This document shows, piece by piece, positions 10,206 to 35,480 of a stretch of DNA of 64,000 nucleotides (its first letter is position 1; every line of letters starts with the position of its first letter). The translations under genes and the position numbers were made by a program. The DNA comes from a virus. The notes under the pieces were generated by a model. It had not been told where the DNA came from, made no database searches, and saw nothing but the letters and a program-made list of their open reading frames with translations. The stretch spans positions 1-64,000 of the IMG/VR virus record IMGVR_UViG_3300042691_021691; one strand, 5' to 3'.

Positions 10206-10212
10206 TAAATAT

Positions 10213-10284
10213 GTTAGTTGTCAGCCACGGAATCTGGTGGTTAAACCGTAAAAGTAAAAGACCGTGCGGTTCGACTGACATAAT
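10213..10284 (+). ncRNA. tRNA-sized three-arm RNA candidate
   Basis: TGTCAG (10219) pairs with CTGACA (10275), extended by outer pairs. A CCAC/GTGG arm with an 8-nt loop looks like a D-arm, and AACCG/CGGTT forms a second arm with an 18-nt loop. There is no T-arm and no normal anticodon arm, so it is not an ordinary tRNA. It lies 8 nt after tRNA-Ala. Confidence 0.4.
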
Positions 10285-10289
10285 CCTCT

Positions 10290-10386
10290 GTAGTTGAGCC
10301 ATATAAGGCACGGGCACACGAAAGTGAGCAGCTCCACCTGTATGGCGGTCGGGGCGAGTAAGGGCCTTTACTCTTATGGCAACTAT
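10290..10386 (+). ncRNA. Candidate structured RNA (97 nt, end-to-end paired)
   Basis: TAGTTG and CCATA (10291-10303) pair with TATGG and CAACTA (10375-10385). Just inside the 3' strand is GTAAGGGCCTTTAC (10358-10371), self-complementary if two G-U pairs are allowed. No coding frame. It sits between the tRNA-like element and tRNA-Val. Confidence 0.45.
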
Positions 10387-10418
10387 AACCGAACCCCATA
10401 ACGGAAAAGTTGCAATAC

Positions 10419-10516: not shown

Positions 10517-10861
10517 ATGGCACATGGTAATGTTATTGTTGTAAATACTGTCACCGATGAAATTAAGTCAGTTCCCGTAGGATTCTCGTGGACCGTTTTG
10601 TTTTGGGGATGCTTTCCTGCACTATTTCGTCAAGATTGGAAAAATTTTGGAATTATGGCGGGAACTTTAATAATTTCTACGTTCTTGCTGGTAGCATTCA
10701 TTCCACTCGTAGTATTTGCATTTATTTATAATGATAAGATGTGTTTAAAGGATTTGCTCAATAATGGATGGAAGATTAAGGAATATACTGGAAGTAAAAA
10801 CTTAAATGTAGTTGGGCAATCTGTTGGATATAATCTTGATAAATTTATGTTGAATAAGTAA
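10517..10861 (+). CDS. Small membrane protein, DUF2628/HrgC-like
   Basis: A 114-residue protein with the sequence GFSWTVLFWGCFPALFRQDWKNF (residues 23-45), typical of DUF2628/HrgC-like membrane proteins, followed by a hydrophobic span at about 47-75. AAGGAG precedes the ATG. The function of the family is unknown. Its stop codon is inside the closing helix of the next structured RNA. Confidence 0.65.
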   Translation: MAHGNVIVVNTVTDEIKSVPVGFSWTVLFWGCFPALFRQDWKNFGIMAGTLIISTFLLVAFIPLVVFAFIYNDKMCLKDLLNNGWKIKEYTGSKNLNVVGQSVGYNLDKFMLNK

Positions 10862-11089
10862 TACGGCAGGACGAGTCTTACTCGGTTAGTGGTCGTATGG
10901 AAAGGCATCTGAAAACTGATAACGTATATGGGGTTCACCCTAGGACACAGCTAACAACTCTCCGAGTTGAGGATGAATAACGACGATGTATAGGGGTGGT
11001 CATGACCCAACGATTTTGGGGTGATACACAGATAGGAGTTGCAACTACCTATCACCTGATTGCAGGATAACACCTTTCCCGCTGTATTA
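10859..11089 (+). ncRNA. Structured RNA A (231 nt) with palindromic hairpin loop
   Basis: The ends pair over 9 bp (TAATACGGC with GCTGTATTA). Internal hairpins include CGAG/CTCG, CAACTC/GAGTTG around TCC, and GATAGG/CCTATC (11031-11053), whose loop holds the self-complementary octamer GTTGCAAC (11038-11045). No coding frame or Shine-Dalgarno sequence occurs in it. The 5' end overlaps the TAA of the upstream gene. Confidence 0.6.
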
Positions 11090-11105
11090 CTTAATATTAA
11101 AATAT

Positions 11106-12439: not shown

Positions 12440-12441
12440 CT

Positions 12442-12526
12442 TCTAAATTATAAGGGCGGAAAATTATCCGAGTCCACCCCGCCAGAAGTGTAATGTAGGA
12501 GACTCTCGGTCCTACTATAATTTAGA
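12442..12526 (+). ncRNA. Structured RNA H (85 nt) with predicted loop-loop contact
   Basis: A perfect 11-bp end helix (TCTAAATTATA at 12442 with TATAATTTAGA at 12516) encloses two hairpins, GGCGG/CCGCC and GTAGGA/TCCTAC. The first loop contains CCGAGTC and the second GACTCTCGG, so 5-bp loop-loop pairing is possible. It lies between tRNA-Arg and tRNA-Ser, 2-3 nt from each, and has no coding frame. Confidence 0.65.
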
Positions 12527-12529
12527 TAT

Positions 12530-18176: not shown

Positions 18177-18205
18177 CAGTTTAATAACTTCAGATTATAT
18201 TTATA
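18173..18205 (+). promoter_or_regulatory. Promoter TTGACA-N17-TATATTTATA
   Basis: A perfect -35 box and exact spacing. The predicted start (about 18208) coincides with the first base of the closing helix of structured RNA D, which supports that RNA as a primary transcript. Confidence 0.8.
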
Positions 18206-18206
18206 A

Positions 18207-18338
18207 AATTGCGATAAGTTCTAGTCATTCCATATCGTCTATAGCGAGTTGCTGGGATGGCGTTTGAAGAACAACAAAGGATGCATACGCAGGTTGAAAT
18301 ACCATAAGAGCGGATTTGCCCGAACCGCTATCGCAATT
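18207..18338 (+). ncRNA. Structured RNA D (132 nt), directly behind a promoter
   Basis: A perfect 10-bp end helix (AATTGCGATA at 18207 with TATCGCAATT at 18329). Inside, GCGG/CCGC forms a hairpin near the 3' end, and a 6-nt palindrome ATGCAT lies in the middle. It has no coding frame and ends 4 nt before tRNA-Glu. Confidence 0.6.
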
Positions 18339-18342
18339 ATAT

Positions 18343-18414: not shown

Positions 18415-18577
18415 CTATGGGTAAGGCTTCACATACGGTGAAAATGAATTTGGATGCAAGATAACAGACAAACTCCTTGTGAGACATTCGACGGAATGAG
18501 TGCTGCAACTTGCTAGAACCATTAGTAATTAGTAACGCTGAAGTGTCTGCCCACCATCATATTGATAGGAGTATGCA
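18415..18577 (+). other. Non-coding stretch with possible RNA structure
   Basis: No convincing gene. TGGG and CTTCA near the 5' end can pair with TGAAG and CCCA near the 3' end around an internal loop; local hairpins TTCAC/GTGAA and CATTC-GACG-GAATG compete with this. The ribosome binding site of the next peptide lies at the end. Confidence 0.35.
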
Positions 18578-18670
18578 ATGCCACATCCAAAAAAGTGCGG
18601 AAAGGGTCGGCGTAAAGTTGGCTCAAAGAAGCGCAGAAATCGTTGGAAAAATAGAAAGCGTAATCATTAA
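18578..18670 (+). CDS. 30-residue highly basic peptide
   Basis: MPHPKKCGKGRRKVGSKKRR followed by NRWKNRKRNH: about half the residues are Lys, Arg or His, with one Cys. ATAGGAG lies 8 nt upstream of the ATG. The composition suggests RNA or DNA binding; its place among tRNAs and structured RNAs makes RNA a natural target, by inference. A longer open frame across this region in another phase is not used. Confidence 0.65.
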   Translation: MPHPKKCGKGRRKVGSKKRRNRWKNRKRNH

Positions 18671-19147: not shown

Positions 19148-19218
19148 GCGGTTCTAGTGTAATAGATAGCACATCTGGTTTCCAACTAGAAAGTCCGGTG
19201 CAACTCCGAGGAACCGCT
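19148..19218 (+). tRNA. tRNA-Gly(TCC), second copy
   Basis: Perfect acceptor GCGGTTC/GAACCGC, anticodon stem TCTGG/CTAGA with loop TTTCCAA. The T-arm is weak (TCCGG/CCGAG around TGCAACT), so charging efficiency is uncertain. It differs clearly from the Gly(TCC) at 5399. Confidence 0.8.
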
Positions 19219-19230
19219 CTTAGTTATTTG

Positions 19231-19555
19231 ATAATATGCAGAAGATGATACGTGACTGAATGCCTCGTTCTTCGGGGGCACGGTATTTCCTAGAGCGCAC
19301 TGTTAGGGAAGTCTAAGTAGGGTTGTGGAATTATAAGTCAGGAAGGAATCATGGGAGGTGTAGCGCCATGAGGAGCGCCAACTGGTCGGTAGCTTACATT
19401 CGCGAGAAGACGGCTGGTATGTGGGTAAATTCCCACCTTGGGTCCAAGTGACAACTATACGAGTAGCTACCGTATAGCCAAGTGGATGAATAATAAAACT
19501 ACAACGGAAAGGTATGGGATTCGCATTCCCATCGTATCATCTTCTCATATTGTAT
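19231..19555 (+). ncRNA. Structured RNA B (325 nt) with 21-bp closing helix
   Basis: The first 22 nt (19231-19252) pair with 19533-19555 through 21 bp with one bulged C at 19239 and one G-U pair. Inside are TGCCTC/GGGGCA, GCGC/GCGC, GTGGG/CCCAC, ATGGGA/TCCCAT, and CTATACG/CGTATAG (19455-19477), whose 9-nt loop is A plus the palindrome GTAGCTAC. CGGTAGCT at 19387 can pair with AGCTACCG at 19465, giving a possible pseudoknot. No gene, intron core or RNase P consensus was recognised. It ends 3 nt before the initiator tRNA. Confidence 0.65.
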
Positions 19556-19558
19556 TGC

Positions 19559-19630
19559 CGCAGGGTAGAGCAACGGTAGCTCGCTTGGCTCATAACCAAG
19601 AGGTAGTGGGTTCGACTCCCACCTCTGCCA
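19559..19630 (+). tRNA. Initiator tRNA-fMet(CAT)
   Basis: Acceptor CGCAGGG/CTCTGCC with an unpaired C1-C72, the initiator hallmark. The first part matches typical bacterial initiators (CGCAGGGTAGAGCAACGGTA). Anticodon stem CTTGG/CCAAG with loop CTCATAA; T-arm GTGGG-TTCGACT-CCCAC. Confidence 0.92.
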
Positions 19631-19647
19631 TTAAATAAGGAGTATAA

Positions 19648-20292
19648 ATGGTATCAATCAAAGTTTATATTAGTGGAAACGAATTTTCCAGTCCATGGGT
19701 ATCCAATTGGACTGGAACTTTATCTTTAATATCTAATCTGCCGCCAAATCAATTAAAATTTAATTATAAATTTATCAATGAAAAAGATAAATTTTTGGAA
19801 ACTAATCTGGCAATTGCACAAGACGCAGAAGAATTACAAAGTCTTGATTGGTTGGTATTTTTAAGTAATGAAATTTTGTGGCCTGCTGATAGTTTTCTGC
19901 GACTAATAAAAAATGGTTCGTATGATGCTATCAGCGGATGGCATTTAAATGAAAGTAATACTACTGATATAATCGAGCGATTGGATACGACATTACTACA
20001 TAGAAATAATGCTATTAATTATATGTCGCCCGATGAGATTGTTAAGAAACCGCTACCGTTTAAAGTGGAATATACAAACATGAATTTCTTTGCGGTAAAA
20101 GCAAATACGTTTTCTCAACTTACTCAACCATATTTTAAACAAGTTATTTTAGAAGAAACTACCTCAATTTCTAATAATAGTGTAATAGTTCCTTGGTATT
20201 ATTCATTTTGCAATAGATTGAATGCGATTGGAAAGGAAATATTTGTAGATCCTATGATTAGAGTTTCCAAGATTTCTAGATCATTACTATAG
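19648..20292 (+). CDS. Possible glycosyltransferase-like protein
   Basis: A 214-residue protein with SLDWLVFLSNEILWPADSFLRLI (about 70-92) and YDAISGWHLNES, which resembles the middle of GT-A glycosyltransferases where the acidic metal motif sits (here SNE rather than DxD). AAGGAG precedes the ATG. The missing DxD makes this tentative. Confidence 0.45.
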   Translation: MVSIKVYISGNEFSSPWVSNWTGTLSLISNLPPNQLKFNYKFINEKDKFLETNLAIAQDAEELQSLDWLVFLSNEILWPADSFLRLIKNGSYDAISGWHLNESNTTDIIERLDTTLLHRNNAINYMSPDEIVKKPLPFKVEYTNMNFFAVKANTFSQLTQPYFKQVILEETTSISNNSVIVPWYYSFCNRLNAIGKEIFVDPMIRVSKISRSLL

Positions 20293-20310: not shown

Positions 20311-20320
20311 TATATTTATT
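20311..20320 (+). promoter_or_regulatory. TATATTTATT box
   Basis: A near match to the late-type TATTTATA box 56 nt before the next gene and directly ahead of the 20329 hairpin. No TTGACA box. Confidence 0.4.
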
Positions 20321-20328
20321 AGTGTATT

Positions 20329-20372
20329 CCAAACGGTTATGTTGAACGTAACAATAACCGTTTGGAGTTTTT
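20329..20372 (+). terminator. Hairpin with U-tract overlapping a ribosome binding site
   Basis: A perfect 12-bp stem (CCAAACGGTTAT with ATAACCGTTTGG), a 13-nt loop and AGTTTTTATT behind it. The 3' arm runs into GGAG, which serves the ATG at 20376. It can therefore end transcription or mask the ribosome binding site. Confidence 0.65.
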
Positions 20373-20375
20373 ATT

Positions 20376-26707: not shown

Positions 26708-27043
26708 GGGCCTGACATGGTTTCGACGGGGTGTAGAAGATTAAACTTTGTATCTCGTTTGGTAAGACGAGTAAAACAGACCAAAATATTTAACTGGCAA
26801 TAATCAATTAGCCCTCGCTGCGTAAGCAGCTTGACAAATTAGTCCAACCCACGTAAGATTAATTTGTTCATTAACGTGGTATAGTCTTAGGGAGGGACCG
26901 TAGCTAAGATGATACACAACAGTCCTATGCCAATCTTACGTTTGTTAGTTGTCGAGAGATTGGCGAAGCAATACAACTGACTATATACATAAACATTTAA
27001 TACGAAGCTATCTCGGACGTGGGTTCGAATCCCACCAGGTCCA
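26708..27043 (+). ncRNA. ssrA: tmRNA
   Basis: One-piece tmRNA of 336 nt. The tRNA-like part is GGGCCTG at the 5' end pairing with CAGGTCC at the 3' end, with TGGTTTCGACGGGG near the start and T-arm GTGGG-TTCGAAT-CCCAC. The tag frame at 26796-26825 reads GNNQLALAA then TAA; with the charged Ala the tag is AGNNQLALAA, ending in the degradation signal ALAA. The stop codon lies in a GTAA loop of a GCTGC/GCAGC hairpin. No CCA is encoded. It rescues stalled ribosomes with SmpB; no smpB gene is visible here, so the host protein is presumably used. Confidence 0.95.
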
Positions 27044-34759: not shown

Positions 34760-35480
34760 ATTAGGAAGAGTATACTTTACAGATGAAACGGAAAACGCGA
34801 TTGTAAAATACAATGAATCTAACGATCTCGACGAACGCGAAGAGATTTTTAGAGAATATATTCATGCGCCATTGGATAAAATGGCAGAAAACATAATTAA
34901 TAGATTTAAATTTCCTTATATGGATGGTACATTTGAGGAAATTAAGTCACAAGTAGTTGCATACTTAGTTATGAATTTACACAAATATACCGCCGACAAA
35001 GGAAAGGCGTTTTCGTATTTTTCAATTGTAGCAAAAAATTATTTAATATTAAACAATAATAATTTTTACAAAGAAGAAAAGCGAGTTATCTATTTAACGG
35101 ATAAAGAAGATGATACGCATTCAATAGAAGAATTACTAGTGGTGGATACGCATCAGACCGAAATACGAAATGATTTACGAGACTTTTTAGAGTTATCTAT
35201 TCAATTTTGGAATTTTAACATCCCAAGATTATTTAAAAAGAAGCGAGATGTAGAAATCGCATTTGCTGTAGTAAGATTAATGGAAAGAATAGATAGAATA
35301 GAGAATTTCAACAAAAAAGCTCTATACTTAATGATCCGAGAGATGACCGATTATAAAACCTCTCACATTACAAAGGTCATCAATAAAATGAAAGGGATTA
35401 TATTTAGACAACTAAATGAGTTTAGGCAAACTGGACACGTTTCAGATCCCTCCAACTATTTTGTATATAAAAACAAATAA
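34734..35480 (+). CDS. gp55-like late transcription sigma factor
   Basis: A 248-residue protein with the layout of T4 gp55 relatives: DEREEIFREYIHAPLDKMAENIINRFKFPY (a region-2-like helix), then HKYTADKGKAFSYFSIVAKNYLILNNN, which matches the conserved tract of phage late sigma factors and sigma region 2. gp55 directs host RNA polymerase to short late -10 boxes. I used the ATG at 34734 (GGGAG upstream). The recurring TATTTATA boxes are its likely targets. Confidence 0.8.
   Translation: MELKQQRNKLGRVYFTDETENAIVKYNESNDLDEREEIFREYIHAPLDKMAENIINRFKFPYMDGTFEEIKSQVVAYLVMNLHKYTADKGKAFSYFSIVAKNYLILNNNNFYKEEKRVIYLTDKEDDTHSIEELLVVDTHQTEIRNDLRDFLELSIQFWNFNIPRLFKKKRDVEIAFAVVRLMERIDRIENFNKKALYLMIREMTDYKTSHITKVINKMKGIIFRQLNEFRQTGHVSDPSNYFVYKNK

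Follow-up and report, generated by a model that had tools for sequence, protein, structure and literature searches.

A helix-closed, G+C-rich stretch between two tRNA genes of a phage as a candidate orphan RNA

Besides tRNAs, the tRNA operons of phages carry further RNAs of unknown role, such as RNA C and RNA D of T4, two small RNAs that are transcribed from its tRNA region (PMC3014915). ROOL and GOLLD, which are phage and prophage RNAs of unknown function, are often found near tRNA islands (PMC12286853), and the cleavage site of theta (HDV-like) ribozymes often adjoins phage tRNAs (PMC10879173).

In this study, a stretch of 64,000 nt (the window) was analyzed, corresponding to positions 1-64000 of a 92,845-base IMG/VR phage contig. 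This contig carries 30 tRNA genes and one tmRNA gene, the latter at 26708, all of them on the + strand. Its baseplate wedge protein exhibits 37-40% identity with those of Microcystis phage Mel-JY01, an uncultured 484-kb phage and Flavobacterium phage immuto, and up to 58% identity with proteins of short IMG/VR contigs. Within the tRNA array we examined a candidate RNA of 323 nt (19231-19553), which starts 11 nt after tRNA-Gly and stops 5 nt before tRNA-Met and is thus located between tRNA genes, as expected of an RNA of the T4 RNA C/D kind. On balance, we consider it probable that this candidate is an orphan non-coding RNA gene of that kind, carried by a large tailed phage in its tRNA operon. 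The features of the locus are as follows.

19148..19219, + strand: tRNA-Gly (tcc), the 5' neighbour of the candidate RNA (ARAGORN; Rfam tRNA 45.1 bits)
19231..19252, + strand: 5' arm of the closing helix P1, with C19239 bulged (pair probabilities 0.86-1.0)
19253..19532, + strand: interior, non-coding, about 49% G+C (stops in six frames and no credible start; G+C; folding z +0.17)
19255..19284, + strand: local hairpin following P1 (pair probability 0.82-0.98)
19322..19328, + strand: 5' side of a long-range 7-bp helix, pairing with 19499-19505 (probability about 0.9)
19387..19394, + strand: CGGTAGCT, proposed pseudoknot arm, at chance level (shuffles of the interior)
19421..19436, + strand: hairpin GTGGGTAAATTCCCAC (probability 0.91-0.99)
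19465..19472, + strand: AGCTACCG, proposed pseudoknot arm, at chance level (shuffles of the interior)
19499..19505, + strand: 3' side of the long-range 7-bp helix, pairing with 19322-19328 (probability about 0.9)
19514..19532, + strand: 3' hairpin adjoining P1 (probability 0.77-0.97)
19533..19553, + strand: 3' arm of P1 (pair probabilities 0.86-1.0)
19559..19630, + strand: tRNA-Met (cat), initiator-like, with a C1xC72 mismatch and A11:U24 (ARAGORN)

The preliminary description had placed the RNA next to the initiator tRNA, and the tRNA-Met found 5 nt downstream is indeed initiator-like, given its C1xC72 mismatch and A11:U24 pair; its anticodon stem has two consecutive G-C pairs, not three. No consensus promoter was found close upstream of the candidate RNA on the + strand. 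A pattern search with the neighbouring protein (about 19648-20292) gave ten matches and no relatives, and no Pfam match of the neighbouring proteins suggested an RNA partner. Past that ORF, a long inverted repeat followed by T's (20320-20375) looks terminator-like by eye and is absent from the terminator-scan list. Elsewhere in the array, 18570-18662 may encode a highly basic peptide, about 30 residues long (MPHPKKCGKGRRKVGSKKRRNRWKNRKRNH, by eye), which is without a Pfam match and is flanked by two non-coding stretches.

The 21-bp closing helix that had been proposed was recovered by folding. Positions 19231-19238 and 19240-19252 pair with 19533-19545 and 19546-19553, which results in 21 bp interrupted by a single bulge, C19239, with pair probabilities of 0.86-1.0. 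End-to-end duplexes were surveyed in inter-tRNA gaps from the window and from other phage loci, 97 at first and 372 later, and the listings comprised the 45 best gaps by z and the best non-coding gap per family. Among the gaps so listed, the P1 duplex has the lowest energy (-42.1 kcal/mol), and with z values of -5.4 and -5.2 it ranks second and fourth in two lists of best gaps.

With regard to the interior, the picture is different. The whole candidate RNA folds more stably than its shuffles (z -2.6 to -3.0; the same comparison gave -3.1 for the phage tmRNA), whereas folding of the interior by itself shows no such advantage (z +0.17; equal stability in 171 of 300 shuffles), and the excess stability of the whole can thus be attributed to the closing helix. 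A z value near zero does not disprove structure, since six members of F1, an RNA family with real covariation that is presented below, range from 0.0 to -2.6. The proposed pseudoknot arms, CGGTAGCT and AGCTACCG, are complementary at 19387 and 19465, but a complementary 8-mer also occurs in 30.5% of interior shuffles. The 8-nt palindrome that was thought to compete with this pairing could not be distinguished from chance either, as an equal palindrome is present in 59% of the shuffles; only a 4-nt palindrome remains in a hairpin loop of the MFE structure.

The main rival explanation is that P1 is a processing stalk, an RNase III-type stem of 21 bp which parts two tRNA precursors and whose interior is discarded. 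The fact that the helix alone is non-random fits this explanation, as does its length. About 21 bp corresponds to two helical turns, the length preferred by RNase III. Nevertheless, 280 nt of high-G+C interior would be costly to discard, and most tRNA gaps of the array are short or contain genes; we therefore regard a stalk as possible but rather unlikely. More doubtful is a bolder proposal, namely that the candidate represents a new class of phage RNA of about 325 nt, clamped end to end, possibly self-associating via GTAGCTAC and serving as a scaffold or decoy in infection, as one of several unrelated helix-closed RNAs in the tRNA array of this phage.

Known RNA classes were searched with Rfam, including the RNase P, tmRNA and group I/II models, and the candidate RNA matched no family, either at the gathering score or at E<=10. 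This agrees with the preliminary reading of the sequence, which had seen no group I intron core and no RNase P consensus: neither group I nor group II introns matched the candidate RNA, and at E<=10 the contig had no match to the RNase P models RF00010 and RF00011, each of which was positive in 11 of 14 control genomes. The tmRNA model RF00023 was likewise without a match in the candidate RNA, and the general Rfam models detected no theta or HDV-like ribozyme in the element at E<=10. ROOL and GOLLD gave no Rfam match, and the element has 323 nt compared with their 600-800 nt. By eye, the 3' half resembled the conserved regions IV and V of RNase P RNA (GGTAAA..CCCACC and GATGAAT), but RNase P RNA is refuted at the sensitivity of RF00010 and RF00011, and the P4 strand that RNase P requires would, also judged by eye, be out of order. 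That resemblance, together with the frequent position of theta ribozyme cleavage sites beside phage tRNAs (PMC10879173), could be explained by a known class (RNase P RNA, group I/II intron, theta ribozyme, ROOL or GOLLD) that has diverged beyond the reach of Rfam. Given the empty RNase P searches with working controls, the absence of any family at E<=10 and the misordered P4 strand, we consider this improbable.

The candidate RNA is unlikely to be translated. All six frames are broken by stops, and the ATG-started frames that end inside it have 27 codons at most. An ORF of 66 codons (19438-19638) was rejected as not credible, as it reads through the tRNA. The interior has a G+C content of 0.489, compared with a median of 0.358 for coding windows, only 1.1% of which are equally rich; the phage overall has 36% G+C and its ordinary intergenic gaps 0.25-0.30. 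In an A+T-rich genome, such a high G+C content favours an RNA gene. Other tRNA-adjoining gaps of the window are also G+C-rich (10206/10215, 10860/10862, 12441, 13838, 18177 and 18665), and those at 10206, 10862, 12441 and 18177 are closed in part by helices. Folding z values of -2.0 to -2.7 were obtained for the non-coding gaps 10215-10400, 10860-11094, 12441-12528 and 18200-18342, and long end helices close the gaps at 12441 and 18200.

The core of P1 is an exact 13-nt inverted repeat, and the window contains no other whose arms lie <=450 nt apart. As 0.77 such repeats are expected anywhere in a shuffled window, this rarity is modest, and the weight lies on the length of the helix and on its placement at both ends of the gap from tRNA-Gly to tRNA-Met: when this gap was dinucleotide-shuffled 5000 times, an end-to-end duplex of equal strength arose once. 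An unconstrained intergenic stretch flanked by an inverted repeat through mere accident, which the expected number of repeats would permit, is accordingly hard to reconcile with both this shuffle result and the G+C content of the interior, and we consider it as improbable as a diverged known class.

No relatives of the candidate RNA were found. With blastn, it had no homolog in INPHARED (a 2.7-kb query of the tRNA array matched there over its tRNA-bearing parts, the matches listed being tRNA regions), no second copy on its own 92.8-kb contig and no homolog among 31 records from related and reference phages, where a single 19-nt match had an E value of 0.08. Exact patterns in IMG/VR either had no match or hit unrelated stretches, most of which look coding, and the GTDB pattern scan gave ten unrelated places, the best with an nhmmer E value of 0.085 across 49 nt. 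When nhmmer --max was run against phage loci, first 210 and later 296 of them, the only match (E 0.65-0.89) lay within an ORF. The kinship proposed with the RNA at 10859 is based on the decamer GGATGAATAA, which is indeed common to both, but an alignment of at least this quality was obtained with 811 of 3000 shuffles. As far as sequence comparison goes, the candidate RNA is an orphan in the databases and loci searched. Least probable of all is a small MITE-like mobile element, for which imperfect terminal inverted repeats of 21 bp enclosing a 280-bp non-coding core could be invoked, but which is present as one copy in the contig and in none of the 31 related or reference records, and whose arms, compared as DNA, show a single gap and a single mismatch, the latter being a U.G pair in the RNA.

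The reading of the candidate as an orphan RNA gene is favoured because it combines the helix, the position between two tRNAs, the absence of an ORF, the G+C bias and the lack of a known family. It is weakened by the absence of a homolog, and hence of covariation, in the databases and loci searched, by the lack of a consensus promoter of its own close upstream on the + strand, and by an interior that is no more stable than its shuffles. Helix closure, non-coding character, high G+C and distance from known classes thus stand, whereas the pseudoknot, the palindrome and a relationship to the RNA at 10859 do not rise above chance. The candidate RNA would share one transcript with tRNA-Gly and the initiator-like tRNA-Met, and it could be released by 3'-end maturation of tRNA-Gly and an RNase P cut at 19558/19559. 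The 21-bp helix would then clamp the termini, and may either shield them from exonucleases or be trimmed by RNase III. The stable RNA so produced would be about 325 nt long and would work like T4 RNA C and RNA D or like ROOL and GOLLD, whose functions are unknown. The phage appears to have several such RNAs, among which the candidate appears to have the strongest end clamp.

Comparable RNAs were identified in other phage tRNA arrays, where the sample for the gap comparison comprised 82 phage stretches with a common tRNA-Met pattern. The F1 family consists of RNAs of about 212 nt that mostly abut tRNAs in phage tRNA arrays, and its 5' end (UGAGUAAGRGRUACUCA) and 3' end (AAUCUCA..GUGGGG) are joined by a long-range helix. 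A pattern scan of IMG/VR returned 89 stretches, a few of which look coding, and 74 complete copies (loci L107-L304), mostly of 200-229 nt, were extracted. A tRNA lies <=30 nt away on at least one side in 59 of these 74 copies, and on both sides in 24. Examples are:

L107:14248-14456, - strand: copy of the F1 family
L294:1510-1718, - strand: copy of the F1 family

Changes on both sides were observed at 12 of 23 pairs (alignment A4, 27 representatives), and the covariation score of 0.515, compared with 0.166 in shuffles, was reached by none of 500. Given that F1 covaries strongly and mostly adjoins tRNAs, such RNAs of phage tRNA arrays are real. Rfam at gathering scores gave no match to F1 in the F1 loci scanned, and blastn found no F1 in INPHARED. 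One copy is present on a distant relative (G026), the baseplate protein of which shares 41% identity with that of the window. At E<=10 the F1 model R1 did not match the window; its best score on the whole contig was 12.2 bits at 35054-35116, within an ORF.

The freshwater-1 RNA (RF02979) was found within inter-tRNA gaps of two phage contigs (L177:8418-8479 and L236:7926-7988), and an end-to-end helix closes the gap that holds it in L177. Another conserved non-coding stretch that adjoins tRNAs (AATGGTTTTCCCCAYTCAACGGATGTCGACAATCC...) was observed at L204:110-652 (- strand), L172:4650-4962 and L190:10341-10704 (- strand), and Rfam gave no match to it in either L204 or L172. Finally, a helix-closed non-coding gap of 298 nt between tRNA-Thr and tRNA-Gly (L178:8232-8529) is conserved in four contigs (also L137, L151 and L183), and its L178 copy is likewise without an Rfam match.

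The candidate RNA resembles RNA C and RNA D of T4 in its location in a phage tRNA region, and is likened to them by location, not by sequence. Both T4 RNAs are shorter. ROOL and GOLLD are much larger, with one example of 659 nt and many above 800 nt, and theta ribozymes appear to differ in their minimal HDV-like fold and their cleavage at the tRNA 3' end, which were not seen in the candidate. Freshwater-1 likewise occupies phage inter-tRNA gaps, but its model has 62 nt and is without a match in the window. F1 has no sequence similarity to the candidate RNA, but both adjoin tRNAs and both are closed by an end-to-end helix. As F1 covaries, has no Rfam match and occurs in the same setting, the question raised by the candidate RNA is open to comparative testing.
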